Shown here: one piece after another, positions 21,450 through 28,687 of the stretch
How positions within the stretch are numbered: the first letter of the stretch is position 1
How the letters are laid out: each line of letters begins with the position of its first letter
DNA from: Gammaproteobacteria bacterium
GTDB taxonomy: Bacteria; Pseudomonadota; Gammaproteobacteria; Xanthomonadales; Marinicellaceae
Assembly: GCA_024280395.1 (NCBI GenBank)
Contig: JAJRQG010000079.1
Span: 1-58,033 of the forward strand
Direction of reading: 5' to 3'
DNA: 58,033 nucleotides
The notes under the pieces: model-generated
Databases searched by the model: none
Told to the model about the DNA's origin: nothing
What the model saw: only the letters and a program-made list of their open reading frames with translations
Translations under genes and position numbers: made by a program

Positions 21450-22826
21450 ATGAGATTTTTAATAATGTTGAGAATTACCATGACGACTAGCGAAAATATT
21501 AAATCAAAATTATCCAATAGTATTTCTTTAAAACTTGGCGTGATATTGTTGCTTATTATATTACTGCAAATTCCTTTGTCTTTTGTCAAAGGGTTGATTA
21601 ATGAACGCCAAGAATTACAGCATCAAGCACAACGGGAGATTAATAAACGTTGGGGAAGTGAACAATATATTGGCTCACCGATTCTGAATGTCTATTCGGC
21701 CAACTTGAATATGCAAAATTCACTTGATCAAAGCAACAATACGAATTATCAATTGACTCACTCTATTCATTCAGATATCTTCAATGTAGATATTCAGCTT
21801 GATGCAGAAAAGCGTTATCTGGGTATTTATGAAGCTGCAATTTATGTTTCCAACGTCACAATGTCAGGGTCAATTAATCTTGACAAACTCAGCCAAAATA
21901 GTAGCAGTGATATGAAATTATTTATCCCTATAAAACAACCCAAGGGATTGAAAAAAATAGAGAAAATAATTATCAATGGCCAACCATTGGAAGTCAAAAC
22001 TCATTTGATAACAATAAACAATATGACAGGAATCGAGATAGATTTAAACCAACAGCATAAAAACAAAAAAATAAACTATAAAATCTGGTTAAATATTGTT
22101 GGTTCTAGCCAATTTGATGTTGTGCCTTTGGCTAAAAACACGACCGTAAACTTTCAATCTAACTGGTCTTCGCCTTCATTTGTCGGAGATTATCTGCCTG
22201 ATGAAAGGAAGATAACGGCAAAAGGTTTTACGGCAACTTGGCAAGTAAATAACCTATTTCAAAGCTCTATTAAACATACAATCCCCTCAAACAACCAACA
22301 AAATCAATATATCACTTATGAAAACTTACCTACCATTGGCGTCAAAATAATCATTCCCGCCAATGTTTATCAAGTTAATCAAAGAACAGTAAAGTACAGT
22401 TTTTTAATAGTATTACTTACTTTTACAGGGTTCTTTTTAGCCGAACTGTTCTTTAATCTACGCTTACATCCTTTTCAATACCTTTTAATTGGAGTTTCAT
22501 TAACCGTTTTTTACCTACTGTTGTTGTCTTTGTCCGAATACCTGAGATTTAATTTGGCTTTCATGATTTCAGCCAGTTCAATCATCATCTTAATTGCAGG
22601 TTATTGTTCTGTAGTTTTACAACAAAGAACACGTGGCATATACACAGGAATATTGTTTGCAGTTTTATATGGTTTCATCTTTGTACTGGTTAAAGCCGAA
22701 GAAACATCATTACTCATGGGTGCTATTGGCATTTGGTTGATTTTAGCTCTGGTTATGTATTTAACCCGCAAAATTGATTGGTATAAGGTTAATGTGTCAA
22801 CAACTGAAAACAATACTGATCAATAG
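21450..22826 (+). CDS. creD: CreD family inner-membrane protein
   Basis: A membrane protein of 448-458 residues, similar to CreD (Cet), the envelope protein of the CreBC regulon in E. coli. An N-terminal span (GVILLLIILLQIPLSFVKGLI) is followed by the conserved INERQELQHQAQREI segment, a large periplasmic domain (about 60-320), and five or six C-terminal spans. The frame opens at an ATG at 21450, but an ATG at 21480 (MTTSENIKSK) is equally plausible because neither start has a strong ribosome site. No creB/creC genes are nearby. The gene stands alone between a pair of about 90-bp direct repeats. Confidence 0.85.
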   Translation: MRFLIMLRITMTTSENIKSKLSNSISLKLGVILLLIILLQIPLSFVKGLINERQELQHQAQREINKRWGSEQYIGSPILNVYSANLNMQNSLDQSNNTNYQLTHSIHSDIFNVDIQLDAEKRYLGIYEAAIYVSNVTMSGSINLDKLSQNSSSDMKLFIPIKQPKGLKKIEKIIINGQPLEVKTHLITINNMTGIEIDLNQQHKNKKINYKIWLNIVGSSQFDVVPLAKNTTVNFQSNWSSPSFVGDYLPDERKITAKGFTATWQVNNLFQSSIKHTIPSNNQQNQYITYENLPTIGVKIIIPANVYQVNQRTVKYSFLIVLLTFTGFFLAELFFNLRLHPFQYLLIGVSLTVFYLLLLSLSEYLRFNLAFMISASSIIILIAGYCSVVLQQRTRGIYTGILFAVLYGFIFVLVKAEETSLLMGAIGIWLILALVMYLTRKIDWYKVNVSTTENNTDQ

Positions 22827-22846
22827 AAATTAAGAGCCTTTTATCC

Positions 22847-22930
22847 ACAGATGGAAGCAGATGTATGAACCTCTACCCTATTGAAAAAAACTCATATCGG
22901 ATGCGAGGTTTCAACCTTGCCTAGATACTT
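22847..22930 (+). repeat. Direct repeat downstream of creD (copy 2)
   Basis: Contains CACAGATGGaaGCAGAT, a variable stretch, ACTCATATCGGAtgc, then AGGTttcAACCTTgCCTag. These match the blocks at 21285-21377 in the same order and orientation. Confidence 0.65.
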
Positions 22931-22968
22931 AATTAATCTAATAATTAATTACACTACTATGTACAACA

Positions 22969-23757
22969 CTACTTAATCATACTTAAAATCTTATCATTTT
23001 CTAAATCAACTACAAAAATATCATCATATGTTGATTGAATTATTGTTAAATCATTTACACGTCTAAGAGAACCCGTTGTACAGTATTTGTTTTCATTTTG
23101 AATCCCTGTTATTGGAGAATCTCCTGTTTTAATTATTAAAATATATGTATTAATTTCAGATCTGTTATTTTTATAATTGATAAGATTTTTTTCTTTATTT
23201 CTAATGATTGAAATAATATCTTTTTCAGAGATTATAACATCTGTAGCCCTTACCCATTGCCAGAGAGGGGATGATATGTTTTCAACTTCTGAACATGAAA
23301 TCGAGTTTATAATTTCTGATAAATTTACATTTAACTTTCTTATTTCTCTTGATTCCATTCTGTTTTTATTGCAACTTATCATTTGATATAACAATTCACA
23401 AAGGTCATTAGAAAATAATTTTTCAAAATATTTATGTCTTGACAAAGTAATACTTCTGATAAAATTAGAATTTATTGTTATATACACACTGATAAAATTA
23501 GAATCATTCCCCTGAAATGATTCTTTTGCTAGTCCAATAGCTCGGCGCACTTTCATTTCTATTTGTCTATCAATGTCTGAGTTATGAAACTCAGTAATCT
23601 CTATCCCGAGTTTTGCATCTAAATTAACAAAATCAGGTCCTTCAGTATCTTCAAAAACTAAATCTCTATATTTGAGAATTTTTTTTTGAAAGTATTTAAG
23701 CACTTTTTTTTCAAATTCTTTTTTTGCTTTACGTGTCATTATTGCTATAAAATTCAA
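22969..23757 (-). CDS. Unrecognised protein with a possible PD-(D/E)XK-like signature
   Basis: A 262-residue protein, Lys-rich at the N-terminus and Ile/Asn/Ser-rich throughout, from very AT-rich DNA. I do not recognise a family with certainty. Residues about 36-58 read EDTEGPDFVNLDAKLGIEITEFHN. The spacing of PD, a beta-strand and an E-hydrophobic-T resembles degenerate PD-(D/E)XK nuclease-fold proteins, where T can replace K. This is a weak motif inference. It is the last gene of a minus-strand cluster and overlaps the preceding RlaP-like gene by 29 nt (11 nt if the second ATG at 23739 is used), so expression is coupled to it. No signal peptide or membrane span is present. Confidence 0.6.
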   Translation of the reverse strand: MNFIAIMTRKAKKEFEKKVLKYFQKKILKYRDLVFEDTEGPDFVNLDAKLGIEITEFHNSDIDRQIEMKVRRAIGLAKESFQGNDSNFISVYITINSNFIRSITLSRHKYFEKLFSNDLCELLYQMISCNKNRMESREIRKLNVNLSEIINSISCSEVENISSPLWQWVRATDVIISEKDIISIIRNKEKNLINYKNNRSEINTYILIIKTGDSPITGIQNENKYCTTGSLRRVNDLTIIQSTYDDIFVVDLENDKILSMIK

Positions 23758-24811
23758 TGTTATTATAAAACCTATCCCTAACCTGATAGGTCAATTCATT
23801 AATGATTTCTAGATTTGGGTTTTCTGGTAAAACTGAATTCTCAAAAGCCCGTTCCATTTCTATTTGTAATTGCTTTGCCATTTTCAACAAGTCTTCATAT
23901 TCATAATATCCACTCTTGATTTTGAGTAAAAATTCACGGTTATTTCTCTTAACATTAACTTGCTTTTGTTGGGCTATCTCTGTTGCCATTTCTAACAACC
24001 GGAAAGTATGCATCATATTTTTGGCATCGTAGTTTTTACCGTGACTTTGGGTATTTTGGTAACGCTTTTGATTACGGTTTTCAACCCAATGCCAATATTC
24101 CTTGTATTCTTTACAATACTTTGAATAGCCATCTTTGTTGAAATACATTAATATTTGTTGCTTTTGACTTTTAGGGATAGAACTTAAAGTAATTTCATTT
24201 GAATCATAATGACGAATAATACCATTAAACTTGACCTGTGTTGAATGATACAAACCATACACATCTTTCATATGTGCAATTTTCGTTAATCCACAATTTT
24301 GCTGCTCCCAATTATTGGTGTCTAAGTATTTCTCAAGCGAAATCGAGCTATTCTTATAGTTTATGTAGCAAAAAGACAAAATACTTTTTCGCTGTTTACT
24401 CATTGGATTAACAATTTTCTTCTTTAATCCTTTGGCTTTTTTAATCTGAGAAATGGCAAATTTTCCAAATGTATTTTGACACAGTTTAGATAAAATTAAT
24501 TCTGGTTTAATCTCTTCTAAAAATTCATGCTTATAAATAACTGATTCTTTAGGTGTATTCAATAATTCTAGAATATTGGGATTGTTCAAAGACAACAGTT
24601 GCATATACCGACCAAACTCATAAAAAACTATGTCGTTACTATCGTTGCTCACTTGAGGTGTATAACCTAATCCATAAAAGTCTTTTTTAGGCAATAAGAA
24701 TACCCCTTTGATATCTGTATCTGATTCAGGAGTTTCTAGACCATAAGCACGACTGCCACTAATGCATTCGAGAATGATGAGATTGTTTTTTCTTAAATAG
24801 TCGATGTCCAT
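23729..24811 (-). CDS. RlaP-type nucleotidyltransferase (second of a tandem pair)
   Basis: A 360-residue soluble protein. The N-terminus has the polymerase-beta nucleotidyltransferase signature ISGSRAYGLETPESDTDIKG: a GS motif followed by an acidic DxD (D-T-D) that would bind metal and nucleotide. The downstream pattern YEFGRYMQLLSLNNPNILELL matches the RlaP/YcgL family (PF10127), which has been linked by genome context to RNA repair in other bacteria. The actual reaction is unknown here. Only three bases separate it from the stop of the preceding paralogue, and there is no clear ribosome site, so it is probably translated by reinitiation. It is about 100 residues longer than its neighbour, with a C-terminal helical, basic extension. 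Confidence 0.8.
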   Translation of the reverse strand: MDIDYLRKNNLIILECISGSRAYGLETPESDTDIKGVFLLPKKDFYGLGYTPQVSNDSNDIVFYEFGRYMQLLSLNNPNILELLNTPKESVIYKHEFLEEIKPELILSKLCQNTFGKFAISQIKKAKGLKKKIVNPMSKQRKSILSFCYINYKNSSISLEKYLDTNNWEQQNCGLTKIAHMKDVYGLYHSTQVKFNGIIRHYDSNEITLSSIPKSQKQQILMYFNKDGYSKYCKEYKEYWHWVENRNQKRYQNTQSHGKNYDAKNMMHTFRLLEMATEIAQQKQVNVKRNNREFLLKIKSGYYEYEDLLKMAKQLQIEMERAFENSVLPENPNLEIINELTYQVRDRFYNNIEFYSNNDT

Positions 24812-24814
24812 GAT

Positions 24815-25576
24815 TTAATCAGGTATGGACTTGATAAAAAATGTATTGAGTTTATTAATATCGCATTTGGCAACTGCCAATCCACCGGCTCGTTGTTTTG
24901 CTTGGATGATGTTGGCATTAATAAATTCGAGTATTTTAGCTTCACCTTCATGCAGATAAGATTCACTGATGGTTGCTTTCAGTTCAATCAATTCTTCTAT
25001 GCGGTTTATAATGCTTTTATCAATATCCAACACATAAATCATTTTTTGAAATTCAATCGGTGGCATCTGCTCTTTTTGTTGAATCCATAAGCAAGCAACT
25101 GAAGCACGTAAAGCATAAAAGAATTTCTTTAGTTTATAGTTTTCAAGATCAACAATATCCGCAAAACTTCTTTTGGCCAAGCCTAAATAATGGTGCAACG
25201 TCGTTCTTGGAGAATAACATGGGGTCGCTATCTGCATAATTTCATTCATAAATCCAGCATCGGCTTGATAAATTATAGGTGATTGTATCCGCTCAAGCAG
25301 TGCTGCATTGGATTTAGTTAACAACCGCAAACATTTACGCAACTCCCAACCGGAAAAATCTAAATCATTATTCTCATACATCTCTTGCAACGAGTCTTTG
25401 GATTCAGTTATACCTAAATACCAATCACGTTTATGCACATAGATTAATCGTACATCATAGTCACTATCAGGTGAAGGAAAACCCCAAGCACGAGAGCCTG
25501 TTTCACAAGCCAATAAGATTTTAATTTCTTTGTCTTGTTCTATTTGTTTGAGGTAGTTGGTTATTTTAGTTTTCAT
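24815..25576 (-). CDS. RlaP-type nucleotidyltransferase (first of a tandem pair)
   Basis: A 253-residue soluble protein with the nucleotidyltransferase core LACETGSRAWGFPSPDSDYDVR (GS motif plus D-Y-D) and the family block DFSGWELRKCLRLLTKSNAALLERIQSP. It belongs with PF10127 proteins (RlaP/YcgL). The ATG at 25576 is chosen because the frame's earlier extension begins at a TTG; GGAAAA lies upstream as a ribosome site. It is followed after three bases by a longer paralogue and preceded by an alpha/beta hydrolase gene 21 bp away. RNA-end modification or repair is the family hypothesis; nothing in the sequence identifies the substrate. Confidence 0.82.
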   Translation of the reverse strand: MKTKITNYLKQIEQDKEIKILLACETGSRAWGFPSPDSDYDVRLIYVHKRDWYLGITESKDSLQEMYENNDLDFSGWELRKCLRLLTKSNAALLERIQSPIIYQADAGFMNEIMQIATPCYSPRTTLHHYLGLAKRSFADIVDLENYKLKKFFYALRASVACLWIQQKEQMPPIEFQKMIYVLDIDKSIINRIEELIELKATISESYLHEGEAKILEFINANIIQAKQRAGGLAVAKCDINKLNTFFIKSIPD

Positions 25577-25597
25577 TTGTTTTCCAATCAAAAAAGT

Positions 25598-26545
25598 TTA
25601 ATGATTGATTCTATCAAACTCCAAAAACTCATTCGCTGTTTGCTTAGGTGCCTCAAGCATAGGCAAATGGCCAATATCAGTCATAACGTTAATTTGTGCT
25701 TGAGGTACAATAGTAGCTAAAATACCTGCTGCTTTGTAATGCAACACTCGGTCTTTATCACCCCAAGTTACTAACAAAGGTTTGGTGAAGTTAATTAGTA
25801 TTTTTTCTAAATTTATTGTCGAGGTTTCAGTGTTTATCGTAAGTAACTCTTGAAATATTTTTGAATTATTCTCTGCGTTACTTATCGCTTCTTTTGCCAA
25901 AACATCTTTGGCAAATTTTGGCAAAAATGGTTTTTTATGAAATAAAAATCCCAACAATTCATCAAAGTCCTTTGCATTTTTCGCAATCAAAATTGGTGGC
26001 TGATTGTTTTTTATCATTTTAGCCATTTCACTTAATGGCGCACTTATAACACCCAGAGTATTTAGCAACCACAAAGATTTTACTTCTGATGGATAAGTCA
26101 CGGCATAATTGGCAGCAATTAATCCTCCCATAGAATTGCCGGCAATATGAAATTTTTTCATTTTTATGGCTTTAGCAAATTCATTAACTCTAGCCACTTG
26201 AGTAAGTATTCCATATTCAAGTTTGGGTGATTTGAAACTTTCACCAAACCCCGGCAAGTCTAATGCAATGACATGGTATTTATTTGATAGGTATTTTGAC
26301 ATTCTTGTCCAGTTGTCTTTGTTTGCCCCAAAGCCATGGAGCAATACCAGTGTTGGTAAATTTTTGTTTTTACTTTCTAAATAACTAATTTCACCTTCTG
26401 TTATCGACACTGTTTTAAGATTTAAATGAGCCAAAGACCTTTCTAGGTTAAGGCTGAATTCAAATAATTTATCCGAGGGAGTGATTAGGTATATTATTAG
26501 CATAAGGAGTAAAATCATGCTCAAAATGTAAAATAGAATTTCCAT
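25598..26545 (-). CDS. Alpha/beta hydrolase, membrane-anchored
   Basis: A 315-residue alpha/beta-fold hydrolase. An N-terminal hydrophobic segment (ILSMILLLMLIIYLI) suggests a membrane anchor or uncleaved signal. The oxyanion region is LLHGFGANKDNW, the nucleophile elbow is GNSMGG, the acid is in WGDKDRVL and the catalytic His is in DIGHLPMLEAP. Resembles esterase/lipase or C-C hydrolase relatives; the substrate is not predictable. It lies four bases after another hydrolase gene and just before the RlaP-like pair, all on the minus strand. Confidence 0.85.
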   Translation of the reverse strand: MEILFYILSMILLLMLIIYLITPSDKLFEFSLNLERSLAHLNLKTVSITEGEISYLESKNKNLPTLVLLHGFGANKDNWTRMSKYLSNKYHVIALDLPGFGESFKSPKLEYGILTQVARVNEFAKAIKMKKFHIAGNSMGGLIAANYAVTYPSEVKSLWLLNTLGVISAPLSEMAKMIKNNQPPILIAKNAKDFDELLGFLFHKKPFLPKFAKDVLAKEAISNAENNSKIFQELLTINTETSTINLEKILINFTKPLLVTWGDKDRVLHYKAAGILATIVPQAQINVMTDIGHLPMLEAPKQTANEFLEFDRINH

Positions 26546-26549
26546 AAAA

Positions 26550-27368
26550 TCAGTCCGAATTAATGATAAAATTTACGATAGTTTTTATAATAGTTGGGTC
26601 TTTGATTGTCATTCTGTGCCCCAAATGTTCTGTAGCTATAAATTTTCCTGATTGCCAAGTCTCTTTTAATACTTCAAAATCACCGTAGGGAATCACGTCA
26701 TCACATCGGTCGTGAATCACCAGCACATCACTGACTTTAGAAATATCATTGGTGGTTAAACTTACATCAATAAAGGTATAATCAGATTCTTTTTCAGATA
26801 ATTTGATGAAATATTGAATTGCCTTGTTGCCTAATTTAATCATTTTTGCAAACCTAGAAAAAACATTTACAATCCTAGTTGGCGCGGAGATGATGACTAC
26901 TTTTTTTGGCATTTTATGAATTTTTGACAAGACAGCTAAGGTTGCTCCACCAAAAGAATGACCGATAATGGCAACAGACTTTGTGAATAGCTGTTCACTC
27001 ATATCGATTGAAAGACATTCAGCATTATAAGGAACGGAATTAGTTTTACCCGGTGAATCTCCATGAGCAGGGGCATCCCAAGCAATAACCTGAAACCCTT
27101 TTTCAACCAATAAAGGTATCAAATTGATAAAAGTTGACCCTCTTGATTCCCAACCATGAATCAACCAAATGGTCGGCCCTGTTCCCCAAGTTCTTGCTTT
27201 TCTTTGCGATTGAAAAGTGATTTGCTTGCCAGTAGTCAAAAATTCCATTTCTTCAATCACCCTGGCTTTTCGCATGGGCCTTACAAACAGCCTCAATGCG
27301 AGTTTAGCGGCCAAATAAGGGCTAAGTATGGACAATAACTTAAATAATTTTGGAATAAGTTTTTTCAT
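26550..27368 (-). CDS. Alpha/beta hydrolase
   Basis: A 272-residue alpha/beta hydrolase with oxyanion motif LIHGWESRGSTF, a DAPAHGDSPG segment, nucleophile elbow GHSFGG, acidic residue in HDRCDDVIPY and catalytic His in LGHRMTIKD. No cleavable signal peptide is evident, but the N-terminus is basic and hydrophobic. It is distinct from the neighbouring hydrolase, so the two are not a recent duplication. It is first of the five-gene minus-strand cluster running to 22969. A hairpin lies directly ahead of its start codon. Confidence 0.85.
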   Translation of the reverse strand: MKKLIPKLFKLLSILSPYLAAKLALRLFVRPMRKARVIEEMEFLTTGKQITFQSQRKARTWGTGPTIWLIHGWESRGSTFINLIPLLVEKGFQVIAWDAPAHGDSPGKTNSVPYNAECLSIDMSEQLFTKSVAIIGHSFGGATLAVLSKIHKMPKKVVIISAPTRIVNVFSRFAKMIKLGNKAIQYFIKLSEKESDYTFIDVSLTTNDISKVSDVLVIHDRCDDVIPYGDFEVLKETWQSGKFIATEHLGHRMTIKDPTIIKTIVNFIINSD

Positions 27369-27375
27369 ATTTTTA

Positions 27376-27410
27376 ACAACGAAGACGAACCCTACTGTTC
27401 GTCTTTGTTA
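27376..27410 (-). promoter_or_regulatory. Hairpin in the leader of the hydrolase cluster
   Basis: A 13-bp inverted repeat (AACAAAGACGAAC / GTTCGTCTTCGTT, one mismatch) with a 6-nt loop ends about 8 nt before the ATG of the hydrolase gene. It has no T-run, so it is not a standard terminator. It could mask translation initiation or be the 3' end of the SPFH transcript. Confidence 0.5.
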
Positions 27411-27436
27411 TAGATCAACCATTTTAAGCTACGGTT

Positions 27437-28687
27437 TTATTTTTTTTCTTTAACGGATAAATCCAAAGCCAAATCTTTGGCAGTTTTAATACTCAACATT
27501 TCAATCAGTGCCATAGCTGCATCACCACCGCCACTTTCACTGCCACCCATTTGGATTTCAGGCACCCATTTTTGTTTTTCTATGGCATTGGCAAAATAAC
27601 CCATAACCTTCTGATAAGTAGCAAGTTTTTGTTGTAAAGCCCCATCGGCTTCCATCACCAATCTTTTGTACTCGCCATCGCCTTCACCACGCAAAATTTG
27701 CTCTTGCTTGTATTCGACAGCTGCCAATTTCTTTTGTTCGGCTTCCAATTTATGTTGCCTGGCAACTTCAACACGTTGTTCTGCAGTAATTACGGCTACT
27801 TGTTTGGCTCTATTTGCATCAACAATGGCTTGCTCCTTGAGTACTTCTTTTTCATATTTGGCCATCATGACATTGGCTTTGCCCTGCTCTTCAGCGGTAA
27901 TCGCATCTTGCTTAGCCCGCTCTGCATTGGCTTTAGCTGTAATAATTGCCATAGTAGCTTCACGTTTTGTTGCTATTTGCTGTAATGTTTTGGGTTCAAA
28001 GTCCCAATCTGTAATCTGAAAACCGTTAACATCAATGCCATAATCTACCAAGTCACTGGTTAAATGGATAGGCAAACCATTTGTTCCATAACTAATAACA
28101 GGGATATGTTTAGTTACGGTTTTTCCAGTATTTTCATCCAATGTTGATACAGTTTCTAGTTTTGTTTGAAATTTACCTTGGGAAATTTGTTGACTGGACC
28201 ATTGGGTAAATATGCTTCTCTTTTCGGCATACGCTTCTTCTGAGCTCATCAAACCCGCTGTTAAATTCATGCCTTCTTCAGTCACTGATTTGATTAATTT
28301 TTGGGCAACGCCACGATTCGATCTAAATGCTTTATGTAAATGTAACATAGTAATTTCATCTTCTGGCAATGTAAATCTCGCTTTGCCATAGACTGTACCT
28401 GTTCCACCATCTTGGTAGCGTACTGATATTCCTTGTTGGTCGATAGATGAATCAACTTCAGCTATGGTTTTATCATAATCAAAGGTAATCACATCTTTAT
28501 AGATCTCTGTTGTGCCAAACCATATCGGATATATGCCTGGTGAAAATTTTACATACAATGTGCCAGTTGGAAATTGTACTACCGTCCTATGACCTGCATT
28601 ATTGATACCAAAAGCCATTAATAATGTCGTGGCTATACCAATAATTACAGCCAGAATGACGAATGCTTTAATTTTACCAGTTCCCAT
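27437..28687 (-). CDS. SPFH/Band 7 domain membrane protein
   Basis: A 416-residue protein with one N-terminal membrane span (FVILAVIIGIATTLLMAF), an SPFH/prohibitin-like domain (about 30-250) and a long Ala/Glu/Lys/Gln-rich coiled coil (about 250-350: AKANAERAKQDAITAEEQGKA...), then a Gly/Ser-rich linker. SPFH proteins form membrane-bound oligomeric rings that organise microdomains or bind proteases. It appears monocistronic, flanked by a GNAT gene and by the hydrolase cluster. No NfeD-type partner is adjacent. Specific function unknown. Confidence 0.85.
   Translation of the reverse strand: MGTGKIKAFVILAVIIGIATTLLMAFGINNAGHRTVVQFPTGTLYVKFSPGIYPIWFGTTEIYKDVITFDYDKTIAEVDSSIDQQGISVRYQDGGTGTVYGKARFTLPEDEITMLHLHKAFRSNRGVAQKLIKSVTEEGMNLTAGLMSSEEAYAEKRSIFTQWSSQQISQGKFQTKLETVSTLDENTGKTVTKHIPVISYGTNGLPIHLTSDLVDYGIDVNGFQITDWDFEPKTLQQIATKREATMAIITAKANAERAKQDAITAEEQGKANVMMAKYEKEVLKEQAIVDANRAKQVAVITAEQRVEVARQHKLEAEQKKLAAVEYKQEQILRGEGDGEYKRLVMEADGALQQKLATYQKVMGYFANAIEKQKWVPEIQMGGSESGGGDAAMALIEMLSIKTAKDLALDLSVKEKK

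Follow-up and report, generated by a model that had tools for sequence, protein, structure and literature searches.

What do two different members of the RlaP family (RNA-ligase-associated Pol-beta nucleotidyltransferases, PF10127) do when they are encoded back to back, and do the genes around them belong to the same system? The question is raised by a stretch of 58,033 nucleotides (nt), referred to here as the window, from contig JAJRQG010000079.1 of a Marinicellaceae genome (Gammaproteobacteria; assembly GCA_024280395.1). In it, five open reading frames (ORFs) lie on the minus strand at 22969-27368, as confirmed by an ORF check, and are named A to E here. A preliminary description of this DNA had read them as a five-gene cluster, tentatively a cut-and-modify or damage-response system, made of two RlaP genes (C and B), a possible nuclease (A) and two alpha/beta hydrolases (D and E). 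Our comparison points to a smaller unit: A, D and E were not found beside RlaP genes elsewhere in the genomes and loci compared, whereas the pair C-B is conserved. In the parts of the literature consulted, what RlaP proteins do is predicted from their family and from the genes next to them.

Active-site conservation in the two RlaP genes

The curated Pfam cut-off for PF10127 is 23 bits, and both C and B exceed it widely, with best-matching PHROG families that differ between the two (Table 1). Active-site residues were compared over 70 pairs, namely the window and 69 loci whose short ORF is at least 230 amino acids (aa) long. In C, residues G32, S33, D44, D46 and D78 are identical in 70/70 pairs. 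In B, the same is true of S20, D31, D33 and E65, and G19 is kept in 69/70, with one G19E. The conservation of E65 in B and of D78 in C suggests that they are the third Pol-beta carboxylate. Scores and residues together bear out the earlier assignment of both genes to RlaP with intact GS and DxD motifs, and by sequence C and B belong to the Pol-beta nucleotidyltransferases of the RlaP family and have a complete set of conserved active-site residues. Profile searches of the PDB with both RlaP alignments found no family member; NKP2 rows in that search (1.6e-4) are a helical-region match and were treated as chance. The window's genome carries a third RlaP, single and short (G000:C92:291-992; L001, L029), which at 275 bits outscores C and lies close to a TruD fragment.

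Conservation and spread of the short-long pair

In order to follow the pair beyond the window, the long-RlaP alignment was scanned over genome contigs, which gave 488 relatives; the best 80, ranked by similarity to the window, were kept (two of them, L060 and L082, come from contigs already present in our genome samples, in G021 and G028, respectively). These 80 loci are mostly from Bacteroidota, and 75 of them have a short RlaP upstream of the long gene on the same strand. The two genes overlap or are at most 100 nt apart in 72 of the 75 and 594-979 nt apart in L092, L101 and L135, and no short RlaP is present in L099, L120 (at a contig edge), L126, L133 and L139. Short ORFs are cut off or split in several of the 80 loci. 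Over the 70 pairs defined above, the distances between the short proteins follow those between the long ones (r = 0.901; 0/2000 permutations as high).

The same picture is found in the samples closer to the window. RlaP occurs in 6 of 33 genomes of the window's family, all six with two adjacent copies, and in 14 of 369 genomes of the class sample, of which four, the window's genome included, have two neighbouring copies. Conserved co-occurrence in other genomes, whose absence was to refute the cluster, is strong for the two RlaP genes (75/80 loci; 6/6 RlaP-bearing family genomes) and was not found for A. At the level of sequence, C-B is a conserved two-gene module that diverges as a unit. Four genomes of the window's genus carry the pair, at three different sites. 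The best reading of its distribution is that the module was passed on horizontally, for the most part between Bacteroidota, and also reached Gammaproteobacteria such as the window's genome.

A second type of pair, in which a short RlaP accompanies a partner of about 300 aa, is found in either gene order (G026, G016, G007, G333, G033). Because such type-2 pairs exist with both gene orders, it seems that the pairing of a short with a longer RlaP originated, or was rearranged, more than once. In G399, a distant long gene resembling that of the window's type 1 (160 bits) precedes the short gene, and in G130 a type-2 gene has no short partner within a 6.6 kb region.

Several single loci are also of note. 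A type-1 pair in G021:C164 (L025) and a type-2 pair in G026:C131 (L026) lie beyond a common row of PurM-like, PurN-like (Pfam) and unnamed genes, with pieces of an IS66 transposase between this row and the pair in G026. In eight other genomes of the genus, different ORFs lie within 1.5 kb of the unnamed gene. That the purM-purN-like site swaps RlaP cassettes is suggestive only. In a Proteus mirabilis record (L231, NZ_OL790811.1; a plasmid by its label, yet 4.08 Mb long), a short-long pair directly follows IMPDH and GMP-synthase genes, with no RtcB-, WYL- or TROVE-type neighbour within 13 kb. In a Hymenobacter sp. DG25B plasmid (L232, NZ_CP010055.1), two adjacent genes are annotated as nucleotidyltransferases, and the second is a long-RlaP match at 47% identity.

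Two genomic settings, with and without RNA-repair genes

We surveyed the flanks fetched for each locus (up to 6 kb) for RNA-repair-type genes, with one protein per kind verified by Pfam. Such genes flank 25 of the 80 loci: RtcB (19 loci), WYL (16), TROVE (4), RF-1-domain (4), PNKP ligase (3) and slipin (3). Twenty-three of these loci have RtcB, TROVE, RF-1-domain or PNKP genes, and two have WYL or slipin only. All 25 fall among the 35 loci that are less similar to the window's B (25/35), and none is near the window or among the 45 most similar loci (0/45). Contig ends are not the cause of this split, since among loci of at least 12 kb repair genes occur in 0/24 of the more similar vs. 21/27 of the less similar ones. 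Thus, the RNA-repair theme of the preliminary description is found in the related loci and is lacking at the window's own locus and in its 45 nearest relatives. The same holds for the genomic association with RNA ligase or repair genes by which RlaP is also recognized, and B and C are classed as RlaP by their sequence, not by membership in a ligase operon. Two of the short RlaPs that occur singly in the class sample (L053 and L055) adjoin RtcB and RtcA (Pfam). Among the repair-flanked loci, the WYL regulator ORF beside the pair and RtcB in L105 (3409-5148) also matches a phytanoyl-CoA dioxygenase domain. A gene for an MbnB/TglH/ChrH-type enzyme of ribosomally synthesized and post-translationally modified peptides lies near the RtcB-linked pair of L107 (3670-4797), and its sequence cluster is found in 4/80 loci.

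The two settings are clustered on the phylogeny of the long gene. In a tree built from 81 long RlaPs, midpoint-rooted and with bootstrap not fully settled, the label repair vs. stand-alone changes 8 times, compared with a mean of 21.5 after shuffling (0/500 as low); given the midpoint root, the direction in which the setting changed is not readable from it. The window groups with L060 (Alcanivoracaceae bacterium, 79% identity), within a set of 50 rows, of which 48 are stand-alone and the other two, both from Flammeovirga, have repair genes. A separate tree with phage and type-2 rows gives the same grouping; the repair label was scored there only against the phage, type-2 and window rows, and its figure of 2 changes is therefore uninformative on stand-alone vs. 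repair loci.

The neighbours of the stand-alone pairs were examined in 18 loci, with at most three genes per side and with incomplete proteins and those below 90 aa or above 700 aa excluded. No recurrent neighbour family is seen among the 94 flanking proteins, the commonest Pfam families being present in 3 loci, and matches to defence genes (PADLOC) are scattered, with families in at most 2 loci.

The pair could also be cargo derived from phages or plasmids, serving counter-defence or RNA repair. Relatives of the long RlaP are found in 320 of 50,697 phage records and those of the short RlaP in 94 phage records; among eight viral loci with a long RlaP, one (L016) falls within the window's group on the tree with phage rows. 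However, none of these eight has a second, short RlaP in flanks of up to 4 kb, and the best-represented phages differ, those of Aeromonas, Klebsiella and Acinetobacter for the long gene vs. those of Pseudomonas for the short one, so that phages seem to carry RlaPs singly. With the flanks of the 18 cellular loci being mostly ordinary genes as well, we regard a cargo origin as unlikely.

Predicted structure of B

B was modelled with AlphaFold from an alignment of 37 long RlaPs, and the model is confident (predicted local distance difference test (pLDDT) 91.7; predicted template modelling score 0.71). A Foldseek search of the PDB gave no match at E<=0.001; kanamycin nucleotidyltransferase (KNT) came first (E 0.024) and HalB of the Hailong system fifth (HalB chains, E 0.14-0.35). 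When the Foldseek candidates were aligned with VIA-align, HalB (PDB 9dbh) was the best match, with Z 9.6 over 168 residues at 13% identity, followed by AAD(9)/AadA and HEPN folds at Z 6-7 (next family, 6.7). The model supports the prediction that B consists of a nucleotidyltransferase core and a helical C-terminal part, an architecture that would be compatible with either a repair-type or a signal-type product.

In Hailong, HalB is the maker of the oligodeoxyadenylate, and HalA, encoded adjacent to it, is the effector. Entry 9dbh has, by its title, oligodeoxyadenylate bound to HalB, and Hailong defence uses this compound as a nucleotide signal (PMC12265719, in the part consulted). The stand-alone pair might serve anti-phage or stress signalling, with B or C making an oligonucleotide, as in Hailong or CBASS, that switches an effector, in the window possibly A. 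The rank of HalB in the VIA-align comparison speaks for this, as do the occurrence of the pair alone and in changing places (the Hymenobacter plasmid, the Proteus record and the three sites among four genomes of the genus) and the position of A, which overlaps B and is AT-rich. On the other hand, the 18 stand-alone loci have no constant effector, A has no convincing relative, Foldseek gave HalB only its fifth row and nothing at the threshold, and the related loci indicate RNA repair. We therefore consider signalling improbable. A broader form of the idea, that a large group of short-long RlaP pairs, uncoupled from ligase genes, is a self-contained polymerase of nucleic-acid ends or a HalB-like oligonucleotide-signal module, and as such a mobile and undescribed defence or stress device, is in our view equally doubtful.

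The C-terminal bundle of B also aligns to HEPN folds, with Z 6.6 for sacsin and 5.8 for the toxin-antitoxin entry 7bxo (chain F), which raises the alternative of a HEPN-MNT-like toxin-antitoxin system in which one nucleotidyltransferase inactivates a HEPN-like partner. R250 of B is kept in 70/70 and H257 in 69/70 pairs, and their spacing, R-x6-H, is that of the HEPN RNase motif. However, Z values below 8 may reflect merely a common helical arrangement, both genes retain their nucleotidyltransferase residues, C scores 14.3 bits where the MntA cut-off is 60, and for B there is no match in NCBIfam. A toxin-antitoxin pair is thus very unlikely.

A proposed repair-type role for the pair

We lean, with moderate confidence, towards the interpretation that the pair carries out a repair-type addition of nucleotides to RNA 3′ ends, with no linked ligase in the window. 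In this mechanism, each RlaP would extend nuclease-damaged RNA 3′ ends by template-independent nucleotide addition, and a ligase would then rejoin the restored RNA. C and B may differ in the RNA end or the nucleotide that they use, or may form a single complex in which each is a subunit. Because the window's group has no genetically linked ligase, sealing would come from a ligase elsewhere, or the product itself would be the point. Such a role is in line with the related loci that adjoin RtcB, WYL, TROVE, PNKP-ligase or RF-1-domain genes. It also agrees with the consulted parts of two papers: in a review, RlaP is predicted to restore nucleotides lost from cleaved RNA prior to ligation (PMC7824862), and RlaP is placed in several counter-RNase repair systems (PMC6514570). 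These parts do not mention RlaP pairs. Furthermore, a wider literature search for PF10127, COG3541 or RlaP gave nothing on this protein among the matches listed. The founding RlaP paper is said to be that of Burroughs and Aravind in 2016, and pairs may already be noted there.

Several observations weigh against 3′-end addition as the role of the pair. The repair role is transferred from related loci, since repair genes are absent around the window and its 45 nearest relatives, and no RtcB was found in the window's genome, in a search not extended to other RNA ligases. It should be noted that most class genomes with a single RlaP were checked for repair genes in the fetched regions only. HalB, the best structural match of B, is part of a defence system whose ligand is an oligonucleotide, and not of RNA repair, and the tight spacing from E through to A is compatible with a wider operon in this strain. 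Finally, no biochemistry for any RlaP was found in the literature searched.

Gene A, the candidate nuclease

A appears to be a genuine gene. Its codon use in frame is 0.141 nats per codon, compared with 0.057 and -0.043 when the strand is read in its two other frames, and the 34 window ORFs of at least 250 aa, A included, range from 0.12 to 0.31. Its GC content is 26%. The PD...E-I-T pattern for which it was first singled out is present, as PDFVNLDAKLGIEIT (PD-x11-EIT), but the Lys of PD-(D/E)XK is replaced by Thr in PDFVNLDAKLGIEIT, and the canonical regular expression matches only through a later E-M-K, 25 residues past PD. The PD-(D/E)XK superfamily includes degenerate members. A string of the form PDx8-20E[ILVF]T occurs in 10/719 proteins (A included) and in 14/5000 shuffles of A, and is thus mildly unusual in sequence and not proof of a nuclease. 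A single-sequence AlphaFold model, for which there were no relatives to align, is unusable (pLDDT 34.5); it draws the E-M-K stretch as helical.

No convincing relative of A was identified by any of several routes. It has no significant match in Pfam (whole or in fragments), PADLOC, NCBIfam, PHROGs or PDB sequences; the eL30 rows from the PDB, with E about 1, were put down to chance. In three overlapping genome samples, from the family (33), the class (369) and the phylum (398), the only clear match is in the window's genome. There was no match in plasmids and phages (tblastn) or, in pattern-seeded scans of lower sensitivity, in viral and genome contigs, and no convincing relative among all ORFs of the loci fetched at the time of the comparison. 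A scan of viral contigs for the GIEITEF DNA pattern gave 32 stretches, of which 11 had no ORF and were left out; phmmer matched none of the 21 ORFs recovered to A, and in no case was a PD or PE flagged within the 45 residues that precede the motif. Four genomes (G071, G524, G676 and G744) gave weak rows for A at E 0.004-0.007, which we attribute to chance. The G524 row has its frame interrupted by stops, the G676 row falls in a DksA gene (Pfam) and the G744 row is identical to it, and the G071 row reaches E 0.007 at 14.8 bits.

Site history and layout of the five genes

At E<=1e-40, D was found in none of the 33 family genomes other than its own, and at E<=1e-3 in none of the loci fetched for comparison outside the window's own DNA. 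E has a homologue in G028:C170 (L188), where the gene order is CreD, an AraC-family regulator (Pfam), the E homologue and Band_7, with no RlaP there; G028 carries its own RlaP pair on another contig. The Band_7 gene is found in four other genomes, and the E homologue adjoins it only in G028, its place being taken by other genes in G020, G023 and G022. Because G028 has the CreD/E/Band_7 neighbourhood without RlaP, the D-C-B-A segment of about 3.6 kb appears, by sequence comparison with this one genome, to have been inserted between E and CreD; alternatively, RlaP may have been lost at the G028 site. E is probably not part of the pair, and A, D and E look like local neighbours of the site and not like conserved parts of a machine.

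Table 1. Genes of the RlaP locus and its boundaries in the window.
Gene	Predicted product	Coordinates	Strand	Evidence
CreD	CreD, boundary gene on the A side	21450..22826	+	PF06123 4.6e-121; homologue in L188
A	Orphan protein, 262 aa, overlapping the end of B; PD-x11-EIT string	22969..23757	-	Coding-like codon use; no family match
B	Long RlaP-family nucleotidyltransferase, 360 aa	23729..24811	-	PF10127 3.6e-22, 79.7 bits; phrog_388 9.6e-49
C	Short RlaP-family nucleotidyltransferase	24815..25591	-	PF10127 5.4e-73, 246.2 bits; phrog_14344
D	Alpha/beta hydrolase, accessory to this genome, upstream of C	25598..26545	-	PF00561 3.2e-33
E	Alpha/beta hydrolase	26550..27368	-	71% identical homologue in G028:C170 (L188)
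Band_7	Band_7/SPFH protein, boundary gene on the E side	27437..28687	-	PF01145 9.1e-9; 86% identical homologue in L188

The arrangement itself was described correctly at the outset. The 253-aa and 360-aa RlaP genes are 3 nt apart, with B downstream of C; the shorter size of C is that from an in-frame ATG at 25576, and the TTG start of Table 1 gives 258 aa. The overlap of B with A is likewise there (29 nt from the TTG of A, 11 nt from an in-frame ATG at 23739), as are the two hydrolases just upstream on the same strand, D and E, which match such families (Pfam). The gap between E and D is 4 nt and that between D and C is 6 nt, or 21 nt with C from its ATG. Promoter-like sites (25 in 22700-27700 vs. 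a shuffled mean of 23.1) and terminator-like sites (6 vs. 2.9 in the same interval) are not decisive for a single transcript. A hairpin-like inverted repeat at 27375-27409, between Band_7 and E, was seen by eye and is not among the sites listed by the terminator scan.

This compact layout on one strand, with gaps of 3-6 nt (21 nt for D-C from the ATG) and the B/A overlap, together with the PD..EIT string, is what a five-gene cut-and-modify system of nuclease A, two RlaPs and two hydrolases would have in its favour. However, A and D were found only in this genome among those searched, the E homologue lies at a G028 site that has no RlaP, and the nuclease fold of A is putative, with Thr in place of Lys. 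We thus find neither one conserved unit of five genes nor a nuclease-like partner that recurs with the pair, and a cut-and-modify system is extremely unlikely.

Comparison with known systems

Among the known systems, the PD-(D/E)XK nucleases are approached only by A, through its PD-x11-EIT string; A is unlike them in its Thr for Lys and in having no family match. AAD(9), AadA, KNT and HEPN-MNT proteins share the general fold of B (Z 5.6-6.7, with KNT as the first Foldseek row), but the Z values are middling and no such family lies above its cut-off for B or C. Hailong HalB (9dbh) is the best VIA-align match of the B model, over a nucleotidyltransferase core and a helical C-terminal part (Z 9.6); it differs in its 13% identity, in the absence of a match at the sequence level and in a Foldseek E value that is not significant.

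The RlaP family itself is the nearest relative. The locus departs from it in that two divergent members are paired, with no repair gene near the window or its 45 relatives and no RtcB in the genome. It agrees with it in the family score, the GS and DxD motifs and the third acidic residue in both genes, and in the repair-type genes near the pair, which 25 of the 35 less similar loci have. Since both active sites are kept and the pairing extends across phyla, our results suggest that C and B complement each other in what they do, and that no linked ligase is needed for the pair to function in a cell. A pair maintained across phyla with both active sites, with and without repair genes, offers a natural comparison, and makes RlaP function accessible to tests on no more than two small proteins. 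Of the cluster first described, it is the conserved double RlaP, in its two genomic settings, that deserves to be retained.

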